This document shows, one piece after another, positions 2,831 to 30,900 of a stretch of DNA of 32,002 nucleotides. The stretch is from positions 1-32,002 of IMG/VR virus record IMGVR_UViG_3300001450_000140; one strand, written 5' to 3'. The notes under the pieces were generated by a model. It searched no databases. It was not told the origin of the DNA and saw nothing but the letters and a program-made list of their open reading frames with translations. Numbering within the stretch: position 1 is the first letter of the stretch; every line of letters starts with the position of its first letter. A program made the position numbers and the translations under genes. Origin of the DNA: a virus.

Positions 2831-3594
2831 AAATTAAAGAAACAGTAGTCATATTTCCTGACATTCATTTTCCACATCATGATGAGCAGGCTCTCAGCTG
2901 TGCATTAAAAGTGTTGGAAATAATAAAGCCATCAGCATTTTTGCTGTTAGGGGACTTTGCTGAGGGCAGTAGTGTTTCACATTGGCAATGGTCAAAGAAA
3001 AAAAGACCACCATTGGAATATCAGTTACCTGCAATAAAAGAAGAAATCAGGCAAGTAAATCATGGGCTTGATAGAATTGATAAGGCTTGCAAAAAAGCAG
3101 GGGTGAAAACAAAGATTCTAACAATGGGGAATCATGAACTGTGGTTTGATAATTTTGTGGAAGAAAACCCCTACCTAACACAGTATGGGTCAATGGAAGC
3201 TTTTAAGATTAAAGATAGAGGCTACAAATCAAGCCCTTATGGCAAGTATGTTAAAATACTAGGGTCTAAGCTGTATGCTTATCATGGTGGACACTACAGT
3301 GGAATTAACCACACTAGAAGTCATGTTATGAATCTAGGGGTAAATATTATTTATGGACACACCCATGATTGTATGAAATCAGTGGTGACACATTTAACTG
3401 GGGCAAAGATGGCATTTTCTATGGGCTGTCTTTGCAAGATGGAAAAAGATTTTTTAAAAAACAGGCAAACAAATTGGACACATAATGTGGGGCTATTAGA
3501 TATTTTTGATGATGGCAATTTCAATTTAAATGTCTTAACTATTATTAATGGCAAAACAAGTTACAATGGAAAGATTATTAATGGACAATCCTAA
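2827..3594 (+). CDS. Calcineurin-like metallophosphoesterase
   Basis: A 255-aa protein with the metal-binding motifs in order: D-x-H (Asp12/His14 in FPDIHFP), GD at 42-43, GNHE at 101-104, HGGH at 153-156 and GHTH at 177-180. This is the two-metal centre of calcineurin-type phosphoesterases; the usual GDxxD appears as GDFAEG, so one ligand position is altered. The substrate is unknown (nucleic acid, nucleotide or phosphoprotein are all possible). Translation begins at TTG 2827, overlapping the endolysin TGA (TTGA), which suggests coupled, low-level expression. Standing between lysis and head-connector genes, it is likely a late gene. Confidence 0.88.
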   Translation: MKIKETVVIFPDIHFPHHDEQALSCALKVLEIIKPSAFLLLGDFAEGSSVSHWQWSKKKRPPLEYQLPAIKEEIRQVNHGLDRIDKACKKAGVKTKILTMGNHELWFDNFVEENPYLTQYGSMEAFKIKDRGYKSSPYGKYVKILGSKLYAYHGGHYSGINHTRSHVMNLGVNIIYGHTHDCMKSVVTHLTGAKMAFSMGCLCKMEKDFLKNRQTNWTHNVGLLDIFDDGNFNLNVLTIINGKTSYNGKIINGQS

Positions 3595-13480: not shown

Positions 13481-13936
13481 ATGGCAAACTATAAAATAAA
13501 CCATGATGACTTTTTAAAACTTGCTGGGTTGTACCAAGAGTCTGAGAACCCATTAAATGAATTTGAAACATGGGAAAATGTTTTAACAATTTTTAAACAC
13601 GCACCTGTAACCTGTGCTAGTGAAGATTGCCATAGCAAGTTTGAAGAGCTACCTAAAGAAATTATATTATACAGGGGAATACTTTTAAAAGACAATTCTG
13701 ATTTTGATTTAAATGTTGGTGTGTCATGGACAACTGATTCTAAGATAGCTAAAATGTTTGCATATAGGTTTTTAAGTTTAGGTGGTGAGGCTTGTATCTT
13801 AAAAGCAGAAGCTAGAAAAAAAGATGTTTTATTTTATACTGATGAAAGAGAAGAGAGGGAAATAATAATTGACCCTGTTAATCTTAAAAACATACACAGA
13901 ATAAACTTAATAGAGATAGGTAATAATAAAAATTAA
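13481..13936 (+). CDS. Candidate ADP-ribosyltransferase (R-S-E type)
   Basis: A 151-aa protein with, in order, LYRGI (Arg65), GVSWTTD (Ser82-Thr85) with a following helix KIAKMFAYRF, and EREEREIIID with E125-x-E127. This is the Arg / Ser-Thr-x / E-x-E arrangement of the arginine-specific mono-ADP-ribosyltransferase fold, in which NAD binds between the first two and the last Glu is catalytic. Phages such as T4 use ADP-ribosyltransferases (Alt, ModA) to modify host RNA polymerase; being first in the early operon, this protein could have a similar takeover role, or act in defence. The residues 1-55 look like a helical cap. The family call is by motif only. The next gene overlaps the stop (TAATG). 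Confidence 0.6.
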   Translation: MANYKINHDDFLKLAGLYQESENPLNEFETWENVLTIFKHAPVTCASEDCHSKFEELPKEIILYRGILLKDNSDFDLNVGVSWTTDSKIAKMFAYRFLSLGGEACILKAEARKKDVLFYTDEREEREIIIDPVNLKNIHRINLIEIGNNKN

Positions 13937-14326: not shown

Positions 14327-14554
14327 ATGAAAAAAATGATAAGAAAAATGAGACCAACTAAGAAGGGCATAAAAGACTTTTTGCTAATTAATGGCATCAA
14401 GCAGTGTTGGTTGGCAGAGCAAATGCTTGTCAGTGAATCAATGCTTTCACTTTTACTTGATAATAAAAGAACATGGCATGCAAAACATATTGTTGGCTTG
14501 TCATCTGTTTTAGACATTCAAGAAAAACAATTAATGAGAATGATAAATGCTTAA
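14327..14554 (+). CDS. Cro/C1-type HTH protein
   Basis: A 75-aa protein with a basic N-terminus and a helix-turn-helix at about residues 24-47: IKQCWLAEQMLVSESMLSLL, then DNKRTWHAKHIVGLSSVLDI. The 'W-L-A-E-x-(4)-S-x-S-x-L-S-x-L-L' core is that of XRE/Cro-family proteins. There is no dimerisation or peptidase domain, so it resembles Cro more than CI. It is the best visible candidate for a factor binding the GTTTAAAC or GTTAGCTAAC palindromes. AAAGGA lies 10 bp before the ATG. Confidence 0.75.
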   Translation: MKKMIRKMRPTKKGIKDFLLINGIKQCWLAEQMLVSESMLSLLLDNKRTWHAKHIVGLSSVLDIQEKQLMRMINA

Positions 14555-18582: not shown

Positions 18583-18612
18583 TTGACATGGACTGTTTAA
18601 ACAGTTTACATT
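18583..18612 (+). promoter_or_regulatory. Promoter P1 with GTTTAAAC operator in the spacer
   Basis: TTGACA (18583-18588), 18-bp spacer, TACATT (18607-18612). ACTGTTTAAACAGT fills the spacer, with GTTTAAAC at 18595-18602, 6 bp after the -35. A bound protein there would exclude RNA polymerase. The predicted start point near 18619 falls at an upstream ATG, so translation begins further on at 18655. Confidence 0.85.
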
Positions 18613-19722: not shown

Positions 19723-19749
19723 AGCCCCTATTAAAACAGGGGCTTTTTT
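19723..19749 (+). terminator. Terminator after the P1 unit
   Basis: AGCCCCT and AGGGGCT (7 pairs, loop 8) followed by six T. It closes the metalloprotease/membrane-protein unit. Confidence 0.9.
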
Positions 19750-19777: not shown

Positions 19778-19807
19778 TTGACATTAATAATTAATAAGTA
19801 TTAAGCT
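19778..19807 (+). promoter_or_regulatory. Operator-less sister promoter upstream of the noncoding locus
   Basis: TTGACA at 19778-19783 is preceded by TGTGAATAATAC, almost the same as the TGTAAATAATAC before P2 and P3, so it belongs to this promoter family. The spacer has no palindrome (TTAATAATTAATAAGT...). With an 18-bp spacer the -10 is TAAGCT, a poor match; TATTAA with 15 bp is the alternative. It would escape a regulator binding GTTTAAAC. Confidence 0.5.
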
Positions 19808-19809
19808 TA

Positions 19810-20262
19810 GTTAAGTTATTTGATAAAGATTTTAAGAATTGGGGTGCTGAGGCATCAGTCCTGTAAGAGGGTTAAAGTAGAGATAGAGAATTAAAATAAC
19901 TGCAGAAGATTTTAGTTCTTAGCTCCCCAATAAAATTTCAGGGGGAATGATATTTGAAAATTGGGGTGGATGGTAGATTTGTCATTGCGACAAAATAACA
20001 CATGAGAGGAGTCACAGTTTAGTGGCTGTAAGTGCAACCTAAGCAGGGGATAAACTTATTAAACTTAATCACATGAAAGACAAGTTGCCCTTAGGGGAAC
20101 AAATAATAGGAAATGATGAACTTGGTCTTGTCTTTGTCCACCCTAAAAGATTTATTAATAATGGTTATTGTACAGGTCTTAATTCTAATGTAGGATTTAG
20201 GGATTTCTCTAGTATCCTCATACTCAACCCCCATGGTTATCTCTCTTTCTGTGGGGGTTTTT
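19810..20262 (+). ncRNA. Candidate structured noncoding RNA locus
   Basis: About 450 bp lie between a promoter-like element (19778) and a strong terminator (20226-20262) without a credible gene. Stems seen directly: ATTGGGG 19838-19844 with CCCCAAT 19925-19931 (plus GCT/AGC inside after a mismatch); AGAATTAAAAT 19887-19897 with ATTTTAGTTCT 19909-19919 (11 pairs, one G-U); CCCCAAT-AAAA-TTTCA 19925-19940 with TGAAA-ATTGGGG 19955-19966 (12 pairs around a 4-nt bulge, competing with the first stem); TTTGTC/GACAAA 19978-19994; AAAGACAAG 20076-20084 with CTTGTCTTT 20127-20135 (9 perfect pairs). I do not recognise an RNA class. A 66-codon frame (20073-20273) crosses the terminator and has no ribosome site, so it is not counted as a gene. 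Confidence 0.5.
20226..20262 (+). terminator. Terminator of the noncoding locus
   Basis: AACCCCCA (20226-20233) pairs perfectly with TGGGGGTT (20252-20259), loop 18, T run following. Confidence 0.85.
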
Positions 20263-20290
20263 CTTTATATTAATTAACTGTAAATAATAC

Positions 20291-20320
20291 TTGACACATA
20301 CTGTTTAAACAGTTTATATT
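20291..20320 (+). promoter_or_regulatory. Promoter P2 with GTTTAAAC operator in the spacer
   Basis: TTGACA (20291-20296), 18-bp spacer containing ACTGTTTAAACAGT (core 20303-20310), TATATT (20315-20320). Preceded by the family block TGTAAATAATAC. The predicted start point is about 20327, at an ATG that is probably untranslated leader. Confidence 0.9.
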
Positions 20321-20551: not shown

Positions 20552-20573
20552 GGGGTGGTGTAAAAGCCACCCC
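20552..20573 (+). other. Intercistronic hairpin GGGGTGG/CCACCCC
   Basis: Seven GC-rich pairs, loop of 8, between the two P2 genes and just upstream of the second gene's ribosome site. There is no T run; it may partly terminate transcription or mark an RNA-processing/stability boundary that sets the ratio of the two proteins. Confidence 0.6.
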
Positions 20574-20992: not shown

Positions 20993-21022
20993 TTGACAGG
21001 GATTGTTTAAACAGTTTATATT
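20993..21022 (+). promoter_or_regulatory. Promoter P3 with GTTTAAAC operator in the spacer
   Basis: TTGACA (20993-20998), 18-bp spacer with ATTGTTTAAACAGT (core 21005-21012), TATATT (21017-21022), preceded by TGTAAATAATAC. The spacing is identical to P1 and P2. Confidence 0.9.
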
Positions 21023-21436: not shown

Positions 21437-21465
21437 AACTAACCACCCAAAGGAAGAGATATAAG

Positions 21466-21492
21466 AGCCTCGCAGAAATGTGGGGCTTTTTT
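21466..21492 (+). terminator. Terminator of the P3 unit
   Basis: AGCCTCGCA and TGTGGGGCT pair over nine positions (two G-U) around a GAAA tetraloop, then six T. Confidence 0.9.
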
Positions 21493-21742
21493 ATTATTAT
21501 AATATTTATATTTATATTATTATAGTATTTATAACACTTTGCAAACTGTTAGCTAACTGTTTAAATAGTAACAAAACAAAGTTACCACAATCATACTTGC
21601 ATGTATGCTTAATATTAGACATGGCTTATGGTAGCCTGACACTGCTGAAAAGTTATTTAAGGCAATATAAAAGGGCAGACAAACAAAAACCATAAAGACT
21701 GAGGTTGCAACCAAAGTTCTTATAATAAACAAAGGAAATGCT
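21493..21742. other. Leader region of the packaging operon
   Basis: An AT-rich stretch followed by the putative promoter at 21539, then a leader of about 165 bp with small hairpins (GTAAC/GTTAC near 21570-21588; CATAC/GTATG near 21593-21608). A 24-codon frame (21621-21695) lacks a ribosome site. TTGCATGTA at about 21598 also occurs in the early-operon leader at 13443. I see no convincing gene here. Confidence 0.6.
21539..21567 (+). promoter_or_regulatory. Putative packaging-operon promoter with palindrome in spacer
   Basis: TTGCAA (21539-21544), 17-bp spacer, TAAATA (21562-21567). The spacer carries CTGTTAGCTAACTG (21546-21559), the exact 14-mer of the early-operon promoter at 13361. The -10 is weak, consistent with activator dependence. 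Confidence 0.5.
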
Positions 21743-21844
21743 ATGCCTTATGGTTCTTATCCTAAGAAGAAGAGTAAAGTAGGGAAAAAACGCCCAAAAA
21801 AGGGTCTTAAAGGCTCTAAAAAGAAAAAGGCTAGGTCTTATTAA
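21743..21844 (+). CDS. Small Lys-rich protein (33 aa)
   Basis: A 33-codon frame with a clear ribosome site (AAAGGAAATGCT before ATG). It starts MPYGSYPKKKSK and is nearly half Lys/Arg with Gly and Pro, so it is disordered and probably binds nucleic acid or acts as a small virion/packaging component. Short MPYG... Lys-rich proteins are familiar from marine phages. Its TAA overlaps the reading frame of the terminase small subunit in a way that may matter for that gene's translation. Confidence 0.7.
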   Translation: MPYGSYPKKKSKVGKKRPKKGLKGSKKKKARSY

Positions 21845-22190
21845 CACCAAAGAAGAAACCCCTGTAGTACAGGAAGAGAACAGGAATGGTGATGGAACTT
21901 TTAAAAAGGGTACATCAGGCAATCCAAATGGCAGACCAAAGAAAGGTTTTGCTATTTCTGATATACTGGAAATGCTAGGTGATAAGGTTTTATCTAAGGA
22001 CTATGATAGCAAGACTTTTAAAGAGTTGATGCTAGAAAAGGTTTATGATATGGCTTTGCATGGAGACTTAAACAGTATAAAGTTTATAGCAGACAGGACT
22101 GAAGGAACTGCATTGCATAAGATGTCAGTAACATCCAATGAGCCAATCCAAGTAATGAAGATAAAAGAAGCTGATGAAACACCTGTTTAA
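21840..22190 (+). CDS. Terminase small subunit-like protein, no standard start codon
   Basis: The frame is open from 21783 to TAA 22190 and contains FKKGTSGNPNGRPKKG, the conserved 'F-x-x-G-x-S-G-N-P-x-G-R-P-K' motif of DUF5681-type terminase small subunits, then a helical domain (ISDILEMLGDK, TFKELMLEKVYDMALHGD, SIKFIADRTEG). It is the expected DNA-recognition partner of TerL just downstream. There is no ATG, GTG or TTG before the motif; the first ATG (21972) would delete it. The listed start is ATT 21840, which overlaps the previous stop (ATTAA) and has AGG 9 bp upstream; a +1 shift from the 33-aa gene is the alternative. Its stop overlaps GTTTAAAC. Confidence 0.65.
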   Translation: MNTKEETPVVQEENRNGDGTFKKGTSGNPNGRPKKGFAISDILEMLGDKVLSKDYDSKTFKELMLEKVYDMALHGDLNSIKFIADRTEGTALHKMSVTSNEPIQVMKIKEADETPV

Positions 22191-22192
22191 AC
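22185..22192. promoter_or_regulatory. GTTTAAAC site at the TerS/TerL junction
   Basis: CCT-GTTTAAAC-AGACTG contains the stop codon of the small subunit gene and ends 9 bp before the TerL ATG. It also covers the place of the TerL ribosome site, which is otherwise poor, so a bound protein here could affect transcription through the junction. Confidence 0.5.
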
Positions 22193-22201
22193 AGACTGTA
22201 A

Positions 22202-27996: not shown

Positions 27997-30900
27997 ATGG
28001 CAAGCCAACCTGACTTAACCAATATTGCCATCAGTTCAGGATATGCAACTTTAATCCACACTGAAGAAAGTGGTGGTGTTAGTAGTTCTTATACAAACAT
28101 TTATGATGGAGATGGAACATTAGTTCCAATGGCGTTTGCCACAACTGGAATTAAAATTATTGATGGCAGTTATGATTTTGATGTAGCCTCACATGATGGG
28201 TCTAATGGGCTTAGGTTAGGTGGCACATTAGTTACTGCAAGTGCAACAGAATTAAATTATTTAGACATATCAAGTTTAGGTTCTGCTCAAGCTAGTAAAG
28301 TGTTAACTACAGACTCAAGCTTAGATGTTAGTGGAATTAGAAACCTGACAGGAACTGGCACAGCACAGTTTGCCAATTTTACATCTACTGGAAATTCTAG
28401 TATTGGCGACAGTGTAGCAAATGACACAGTTGCTTTCAATGCAACAATTACAACAAATTTAGTTTTTGAAGGCTCTACTGCTAATGCTTATGAAACAACT
28501 TTAGCAATCACAGACCCAACTGCAGATAGAACGTGGACAATCCCTGATTCTACTGACACCTTTGTAGGTCTTGCCACTACAGATACTTTAACAAATAAAA
28601 CTTTAACTGCTCCTGATATTAATACACCTGACATTGATGGTGGTACTGTAGATGCAATTACTTCTTTGACAGTGGCTAATAATGTTGATATAGGTTCTTA
28701 TGACCTAAGAGCAGGAACACTTACTGCTGATGGATTAACAAGTGGCAGAGTAGTGTTTGCAGGCACAAATGGGGTTCTTTCTGATGACTCAGATTTATCA
28801 TTTAGTGGAGCTACCTTATCTGCAACAAATATGACCTCATCAGGCACAGTAACTTTTGGCAGTCTATCTGATGGCTCAATAACTGTTACAGCTTTTGTTG
28901 ATGAAGATGACATGAGTAGCAACTCTGCAACTTTAATTCCAACCCAACAATCTGTAGTCAGCTACATTCAAAGCCAAATAACGGCACAAGATTTAGATTT
29001 TCAAGGTGATTCAGGTGGGGCTTTAAATATAGACCTTGACAGTGAGACATTAGACATTGCAGGGGGAACTGGTATAGACACAGTGGGGTCAAGTAATACT
29101 CTGACTGTTGCAATAGATTCAACAGTGGCAACTTTAGCAGGCTCACAAACTTTATCAAATAAAACTTTAGCAAGCCCAACAATCACAACACAGTTTACAA
29201 TAGGCAGTGCAACAATAAGTGAAGCAGAGTTAGAAATTTTAGATGGTGCAAATGTATCCACTACAGAGCTTAATATTATGGATGGTGACACAAGTGCCAC
29301 AAGCACCACTGTTGCTGATGCTGACAGGGTAGTCTTTAATGATGCAGGTGTAATGAAACAAGTGGCTGTTACAGACCTCTCAGCTTACTTAGATGATGAG
29401 ATTACAGCTATGCCTAACCTTGTCCAAACTTCTGCCTTAGATAGTGGCAGTATCACTTCAGGGTTTGGCAATATAGATAATGGCTCAAGCACTGCAAACT
29501 TTGGAGCAACTACAGTTGATTCTCTTTCTGTAAGTGATGGCAATATAACAAATGTAGGAAGCATTGCTTTAGATAGTATTTCTGCAGATAGTTCAACAAT
29601 CACTTTTTCAAGTGCTATTGACTTTGACAATCAGAACATGACAAATGTTGATATTGACTCAGGAGCTATTGATGGTACAAATATAACAGTTGGTTCAGGT
29701 AAAACATTAGATGTGAGTGCAGGAACATTTACCCTAGCAAATAATCAGATTTCAGGTGATAAGGTTGAGGGTGGAACTATTGCAGGTACAACAATAACAG
29801 CACTTACAACGGCAGGCATAACAGCCTCAGCAAATATTGATATTGGTTCTTATAATTTAAGAGCATCCACATTAACTGCAGATAGTCAATCATCAGGTAG
29901 TGTTGCAATCTATGGAGCAAATGGTGTTCTTAGTGAAGATTCAGACTTAACATTTTCTGGCTCGACTTTATCAGCAACCAATGTGGCTATAAGTGGTACA
30001 TTGACGACAACAGGAAGCGTTCAAGAAGTTTCCACAACAAACTTAAATGTACAAGACCCATTAATTCTGCTTAACAAATATGATTTACAGCCAAGTAATA
30101 ATGTTTTTGATGCAGGTATTGTTATTAAAAGAGGTTCATCAGATTCTGCTCCTGCTAATGTAGCAATGATTTGGGATGAATCAGCAAACACTTTTGGCTT
30201 TATTGATACAGATGATGATGGAACAACTGCAGGAAATGTTACTGTAACTGATTATGAAAATTTAAGAGTTGGTGCTTTAACAGCAGACGATGCTTCAACT
30301 TTTACAAGCACAATCTCTACAGCTACAGGCTCAACTATTGGAAACCTTACTTTTGCAAATGGTTCAATTACTGACAGTAGTGGTGCAATAAGTTTTGGAG
30401 ATGAAAATCTTACAACTACAGGAACTTTTAGTGCTGAACATCTAACATCAACTGATGATGCTACAATAGCAGACACAATTTCAATAGATGGTACAATGAC
30501 AATAGCTACAGGCTCTATAACAGATTCAAGTGGTGCTATAGATTTTGGAAATGAGGCACTTTCAACAAGTGGAACTTTAGGAGCAGGAGTTATTACAGCA
30601 ACTGGCTTAACTATAGGAAGTGCAGTTATCACAGAAGCTGAATTAGAAATCCTTGATGGTGCAAGTTTAACAACCACAGAATTAAATTATGTTGATGGAG
30701 TTACTTCAGCAATACAAACGCAGATAGATACAAAAGCACCTCTTGCAAGTCCAACTTTTACAGGAACAATCACTATTGGAAGTGCAGGAATTAGTGAAAC
30801 TGAATTAGAGATATTGGATGGCTTAACAGTTACGACTGATGAGCTTAATATCATGGATGGTAGTGCTACAACTCAGGCAACAGTTACCTTAGCAGGAACT

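Follow-up and report, generated by a model that had tools for sequence, protein, structure and literature searches.

Between a promoter and a strong terminator at positions 19778–20262 of the viral record IMGVR_UViG_3300001450_000140 lie about 450 nt in which no credible gene was recognized, which raises the question of whether a structured noncoding RNA is transcribed from this locus and how such an RNA might act. The 32,002-base record is referred to here as the window; all coordinates are given on the whole window unless another contig is named. The locus very probably holds a real structured noncoding RNA unit, with limits refined to 19814–20262 (~450 nt), and its features are collected in Table 1.

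Table 1. Features of the RNA locus and its borders, in window coordinates.
Feature	Position	Strand	Details
Terminator of preceding unit	19723–19744		found by consensus terminator scan
RNA promoter	19778–19807	+	−35 TTGACA at 19778–19783; 18-nt spacer; weak −10 TAAGCT at 19802–19807; no CTGTTTAAACAG operator
Invariant 5′ element AGTTATTTGATA	19814–19825	+	12/12 identical in three members; at expected transcription start
Domain 1 (5′ domain)	19814–19939	+	common to window and L002; interior differs in L098
Helix PA	19839–19844/19925–19930	+	UUGGGG/CCCCAA; GGUUAG/CUAACC instead in L098
Domain 1 hairpin	19886–19920	+	loop AACUGCAGAA; 12-pair stem 19886–19897/19909–19920
Invariant core AGGGGGAATGATATTTGAAAATT (23 nt)	19940–19962	+	between domains 1 and 2; identical in window, L002 and L098
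Domain 2 (middle, exchangeable)	19961–20146	+	closed by helix PB, 19961–19973/20134–20146
66-aa ORF, not a gene	20073–20273	+	interrupted frame in L002; substitutions without synonymous bias
3′ hairpin (GGAUUUAGGGAUUUCUCUAGUAUCC)	20188–20221	+	conserved in L002, absent in L098
Intrinsic terminator	20226–20262	+	AACCCCCAUGG-loop-CUGUGGGGGUU UUUU; 11-bp stem, 12-nt loop, U-run

Homologues and distribution

RNA homologues were found in two further viral contigs, so that with the window the family has three members, of which two are closely related. L002 (IMGVR_UViG_3300017773_000301) was reached via the adjoining SprT-like gene, and the third member, L098 (IMGVR_UViG_3300030107_004787), was obtained from a search of whole related records. 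In L002 the RNA is flanked by units of the same kinds as in the window, its 5′ part is conserved at 84% and its 3′ part at 92%, and its middle is without alignment; the genomes around the RNA are ~83–92% identical by blastn piece (window/L002). The start element, GATTTTAAAGAATTGG and the 23-nt core are found in L098 also. RNA size ranges from 449 to 651 nt across the three members. L006, a contig that begins inside the same terminator, probably carries a cut fourth copy.

When all IMG/VR and 85k GTDB genomes were scanned by pattern, the known members alone came back, other matches being coding or unrelated DNA. Other database matches to a 17–19-mer of the core were unrelated, and in the window itself the core occurs once. 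Annotated phage genomes (INPHARED) were searched by distant blastn and gave no real DNA match to the RNA. An Rfam search, proposed as a check on the original prediction, matched no family: with gathering thresholds and with relaxed E-values, all three RNAs gave chance matches only. At E 10 the records of the window, L002, L098 and L013 gave nothing with the GOLLD model (RF02032). The ROOL model (RF03087) likewise found nothing at E 10; its positive control was silent in that search, but the full Rfam scans agree with the result for both models.

Where the locus is visible, the RNA was absent from relatives with 87–90% identical TerL: in L003/L010, L009 and L012 the SprT/mini-ORF unit runs almost straight into TerS, leaving no RNA in the SprT–TerS interval, and in L013 the cassette region is occupied by other cassettes. 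Other whole related records, most of them fragments, were searched and gave no RNA match. Absence at the locus in close relatives points to an accessory element and argues against a role in packaging or as an origin.

Genomic setting

The gene order of the window runs from tail genes through a Sak-like annealing protein, a NinG-like nuclease and other early genes to a row of short promoter–gene–terminator cassettes at 18.5–21.5 kb, followed by the terminase and head genes. The RNA locus is situated within that row, with the recombination/early genes on one side and the terminase genes, ~2 kb downstream, on the other. No tRNA genes were found in the window, and no integrase was found among the window proteins scanned, which represented part of the ORFs. 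The phages are uncultured and presumably marine, the latter label being taken from the resemblance of relatives and from sample names.

In the protein cassettes (window 18619, 20327 and 21029; L002 4677 and 6683; L013 1811; L098 3069) an ATG is placed ~6 nt past the −10 hexamer and, with transcription starting at its usual distance, would be translated without a leader; a second in-frame ATG follows about a dozen codons on, behind a purine-rich AAAGAAAGAGAG-like site, and the N-terminal pieces are alike (MLLNENKQRENKM, MLLNNNQKKERPEM and MNLFNNTKKESKNM). An intergenic stem-loop, GGGGTGGTGTAAAAGCCACCCC, occurs at window 20553–20573, L013 ~2776–2798 and L098 ~3536–3558, between different gene pairs and just before the next ribosome site. 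Ahead of the small terminase gene, ~500 nt (window 21440–21970) are conserved as DNA in all close relatives and have low folding z at both ends; a late promoter, a packaging site or a second structured RNA may be located there. A 151-aa protein of unknown function (13481–13936, phrog_4776) has a YRG / SWTTD / EREI spacing that may resemble that of ADP-ribosyltransferases.

Predicted transcription unit

A promoter-family element without the palindrome had been claimed at 19778, and this reading was borne out: the promoter layout is repeated in L002 (6069) and L098 (2318), and in none of the three homologues does the RNA promoter contain the palindrome. TTGACA, exactly 30 nt and then AGTTATTTGATA follow one another in every member, and among 109 loci this arrangement was found only in the loci holding the three members. 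Given the 18-nt spacer and the −10 hexamer, the expected +1 is the first base of the conserved 12-mer; since the distance from TTGACA is the same in three phages, conservation sets in where transcription is expected to start. The strong terminator that had been claimed was likewise found, at the 3′ end of the unit (Table 1), and L002 has the same terminator, as does L006 at its cut end; the consensus terminator scan picked up only a shorter version of it. Promoter, fixed start and terminator together suggest that the RNA is transcribed as a discrete unit.

Lack of the operator had been taken to mean that the RNA could be expressed when P1–P3 are off. Its absence in three of three members fits expression independent of P1–P3, but is not special to the RNA, because two protein-coding cassette promoters (L002:7148 and L013:2423) likewise lack the palindrome, and the −10 of the window is poor. 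Expression in a lysogenic or carrier state, which had been proposed on the same ground, is at most possible, given the lack of an integrase in the scanned part of the proteome. The palindrome itself, at 18592–18605, 20300–20313, 21002–21015, 21556–21569 and 22182–22195, lies across cassette promoters and is met again ahead of the terminase genes; a 75-aa repressor-like protein (gene 14327–14554, phrog_1468) is a candidate binder.

Coding potential

The absence of a credible gene over ~450 nt, as originally described, was confirmed. The frame of the 66-aa ORF is interrupted by stops in L002, and the eight substitutions in the part shared between window and L002 are distributed over codon positions 1, 2 and 3 as 2, 5 and 1. 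The ORF had no Pfam match and no protein relative in IMG/VR, and no open frame is common to the three RNAs. A mini-ORF in the core, MIFEN (AGGGGGAATG), was rejected; its SD-like run is too close, and in L002 it stops after five codons. The prediction of a noncoding structured transcription unit is supported, because the frame 20073–20273 is not conserved and compensatory changes, described below, exist.

Secondary structure

Directly after the core lies helix PB, of at least 13 pairs, which encloses a domain of 186–268 nt in the three RNAs and was demonstrated by covariation. One strand consists of the 13 nt starting at the TTG of the core end and the partner segment lies at the end of the middle domain, with sequences that differ between RNAs. 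Across the three sequences 39 of 39 cells are paired, with 6 of the 13 pairs changed on both sides; 1 of 500 shuffles was as good, and sliding by 1–3 bases brought the pairing down to 28–47%. As the 39-cell test segments were picked after the duplex had been seen, significance is more fairly given by an independent test, in which the strand was paired with the downstream RNA and compared with shuffled versions; its p values were 0.001/0.005 for the window, <0.001 for L002 and 0.010/0.011 for L098. PB was present in both the MFE and the centroid structure of domain 2 in all three RNAs. Of the long stems first noted at the locus, those of 12 pairs (the domain 1 hairpin) and of 11–13 pairs (PB) are real.

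A stem density above that of the surrounding genes, also claimed, was not observed. In a 160-nt sliding z scan the interval had a mean z of −0.28, and 60% of equally long runs of the same genome were as structured or more so. Whole-RNA folding z was −1.3 to −1.4 for the window, −3.1 for L002 and −0.7 for L098, values that are ordinary for the window and L098, and the scan and these values rule out thermodynamic uniqueness of the interval. For the window, L002 and L098, respectively, z was −2.5, −4.4 and −1.2 for domain 2 and −2.5, −4.4 and −1.7 for the 3′ region. Structure is argued here from comparison of the sequences and not from folding energy.

Pair covariation bears mainly on one helix, because the family has only three members, two of them closely related; PB is supported in three sequences and the other helices in two or tentatively. 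In the domain 1 hairpin the loop is kept between window and L002 and the stem is changed on both sides (UAAGUC/GGCUUA around AAACUGCAGAAC in L002), and the U/G pair at 20197/20212 of the 3′ hairpin is A/U in L002. Changes in PA and in the domain 1 hairpin were read by hand, and the minimum-energy fold of L098 favours other pairs at PA. A helix P0 (GUUAUUU/GAAUGAU) closing the 5′ domain, between the two invariant elements, seemed convincing only when domains were folded in isolation and was rejected at a full-length ensemble probability of ≤0.07 and a chance p of 0.11; P0 and a loop–loop contact are to be regarded as tentative.

Domain mosaic

By local alignment against shuffles, domain 1 is homologous between window and L002 (z 32), and domain 2 between L002 and L098 (z 16.6). 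Domain 2 of the window had no homology to that of L002 or L098 (p 0.97 and 0.56, respectively), and the interior of domain 1 in L098 was not above chance (p ~0.19). With a single core, the RNAs form a mosaic in which the window is 1a+2x, L002 is 1a+2b and L098 is 1c+2b. Identity between window and L002 ends just inside PB and returns ~20 nt past it, and domain 2 was therefore exchanged as a structural unit.

Proposed function and alternative explanations

The explanation which we favour, and which falls a little short of probable as a whole, is a structured RNA that has a promoter and a terminator of its own and acts in trans, with a constant core and exchangeable domains. The locus would produce a noncoding RNA of ~450 nt (19814–20262), for which action in trans is suggested because terminators on both sides insulate the RNA and the neighbours vary among relatives. 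The 5′ end and the 23-nt core would form the constant part, probably recruiting or displaying the same partner in every phage, and domain 2, perhaps domain 1 too, would meet a fast-changing partner. Factors directed at a host or a rival show this kind of whole-domain exchange among close relatives; as the middle domain is replaced whole between two phages otherwise ~85–90% identical, the target that this points to is one that evolves quickly, for instance a factor of the host or of a competitor. The middle domain may then be the target-binding, host-takeover or counter-defence part, and its target may be host-specific. That the RNA is an accessory trans-acting RNA with a swappable target domain is tenable, if distinctly short of probable, and a decoy or regulatory role, as originally suggested, is possible. 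An unlikely extension is a modular phage RNA family in which a fixed platform, made up of the start element and the 23-nt core, carries 5′ and middle domains recombined at their borders, each recognizing a different host or rival-phage factor; if true, this would be the RNA counterpart of domain-swapping protein effectors.

The main rival is an RNA-only assembly of the ROOL/GOLLD kind, in which an abundant architectural RNA would self-assemble through kissing loops, possibly into a cage, with the self-complementary CUGCAG of loop AACUGCAGAA as dimer contact. Such an assembly would suit the size of 449–651 nt, the phage origin, the elaborate branched folds and the variable and constant regions, as in GOLLD (PMC12286853), and also the palindromic loop kept in window and L002 while its stem changed. 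The palindromic loop was, however, not found in L098, domains are far more freely exchanged, and since neither the ROOL nor the GOLLD model matched at E 10 and the window has no tRNA, this reading is considered rather unlikely.

An antisense or immunity-type regulator of phage genes, pairing with phage leaders like P4 CI RNA and P1 c4, is quite improbable. The RNA is located among early cassettes, its promoter is without the operator carried by P1–P3, and its invariant 5′ end is not firmly paired in full-length ensembles, but in a comparison confined to sites without bulges or G-U pairs the longest match to the rest of the window was 13 nt, as against 10–15 nt for shuffles, and the middle domain swaps without a matching neighbour change. 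The 13-nt match, a perfect complement to the invariant 5′ end at chance level for the whole RNA, lies at 29150–29162 inside a presumed tail/fibre gene.

In all three phages the RNA stands directly upstream of a cassette, as a cis-acting leader or attenuator of the next cassette (20291 onward) would; this is very improbable, given that the RNA has its own strong terminator, that the next cassette has its own promoter and that the downstream genes are not the same in window, L002 and L098. A DNA-level element (origin, packaging or recombination site), with the invariant core as a protein-binding site, would explain a 23-bp core at the junction of exchanged modules, where a recombination site might lie, but is highly unlikely in view of the absence at the locus from close relatives and of PB covariation and a fixed promoter-to-start distance, both RNA-level signals; moreover, cumulative GC skew climbs steadily through the window with no turn at the locus, and a replication origin was rejected for lack of a skew change. 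The degenerate spacer or functionless assembly join that ordinary local folding energy and the unlikeness of the window's domain 2 to the others might suggest is already disfavoured and scarcely credible, as start, core, hairpin and terminator are conserved across contigs and the ends of the unique domain pair over 13 positions, which those of a chance join would not.

Comparison with known RNAs

The phi29 pRNA (~120–174 nt) is essential and is, like the RNA described here, a structured phage RNA; the present RNA is encoded ~2 kb upstream of terminase. A phi29-type RNA would be expected in all phages with that packaging motor, whereas this one is absent at the locus from L003/L010, L009, L012 and L013, relatives with 87–90% identical TerL whose records are mostly fragments. 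The P4 CI and P1 c4 immunity RNAs, antisense to leaders according to the part of PMC7567579 in which they are cited, are also phage noncoding RNAs of an early control region, from which the present RNA differs in having no significant antisense match in the window. The ~800-nt ORF-less transcript of ICP1 and the lncRNAs of phage K are long, gene-free and abundant in infection (PMC7567579, PMC9241854); they are known from RNA-seq in cultured phages, whereas the present RNA was recognized from sequence, and the comparison consists in the lack of an INPHARED DNA match.

The RNA has the marks of large structured phage noncoding RNAs in the broad sense, namely no reading frame conserved among homologues and a secondary structure backed by covariation in helix PB. 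Among known kinds, GOLLD and ROOL come closest in size, in origin and in lacking a known function, but the RNA matched neither covariance model and is therefore not filed under either. ROOL, a large phage/prophage RNA that is non-essential where studied (PMC12286853), is comparable as a large RNA of phage origin; it is often near tRNA islands, whereas here there are none and the domains form an exchangeable mosaic. GOLLD, also large, structured, noncoding and of phage or prophage origin, is divided into a constant and a variable region (PMC12286853), and the present RNA shares this organization. GOLLD RNAs are often >800 nt and frequently, though not universally, near tRNA genes, as against 449–651 nt and no tRNA in the window; here, furthermore, the 3′ hairpin and both domains can vary, and what stays constant is a short core in the centre. 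During infection large phage RNAs commonly reach high levels, with functions that are for the most part unknown. The present RNA is compact, its invariant core is sharply defined and its domain swaps are natural, and because such swaps set what all the phages require apart from what varies between them, they make the function of RNAs of this kind testable.
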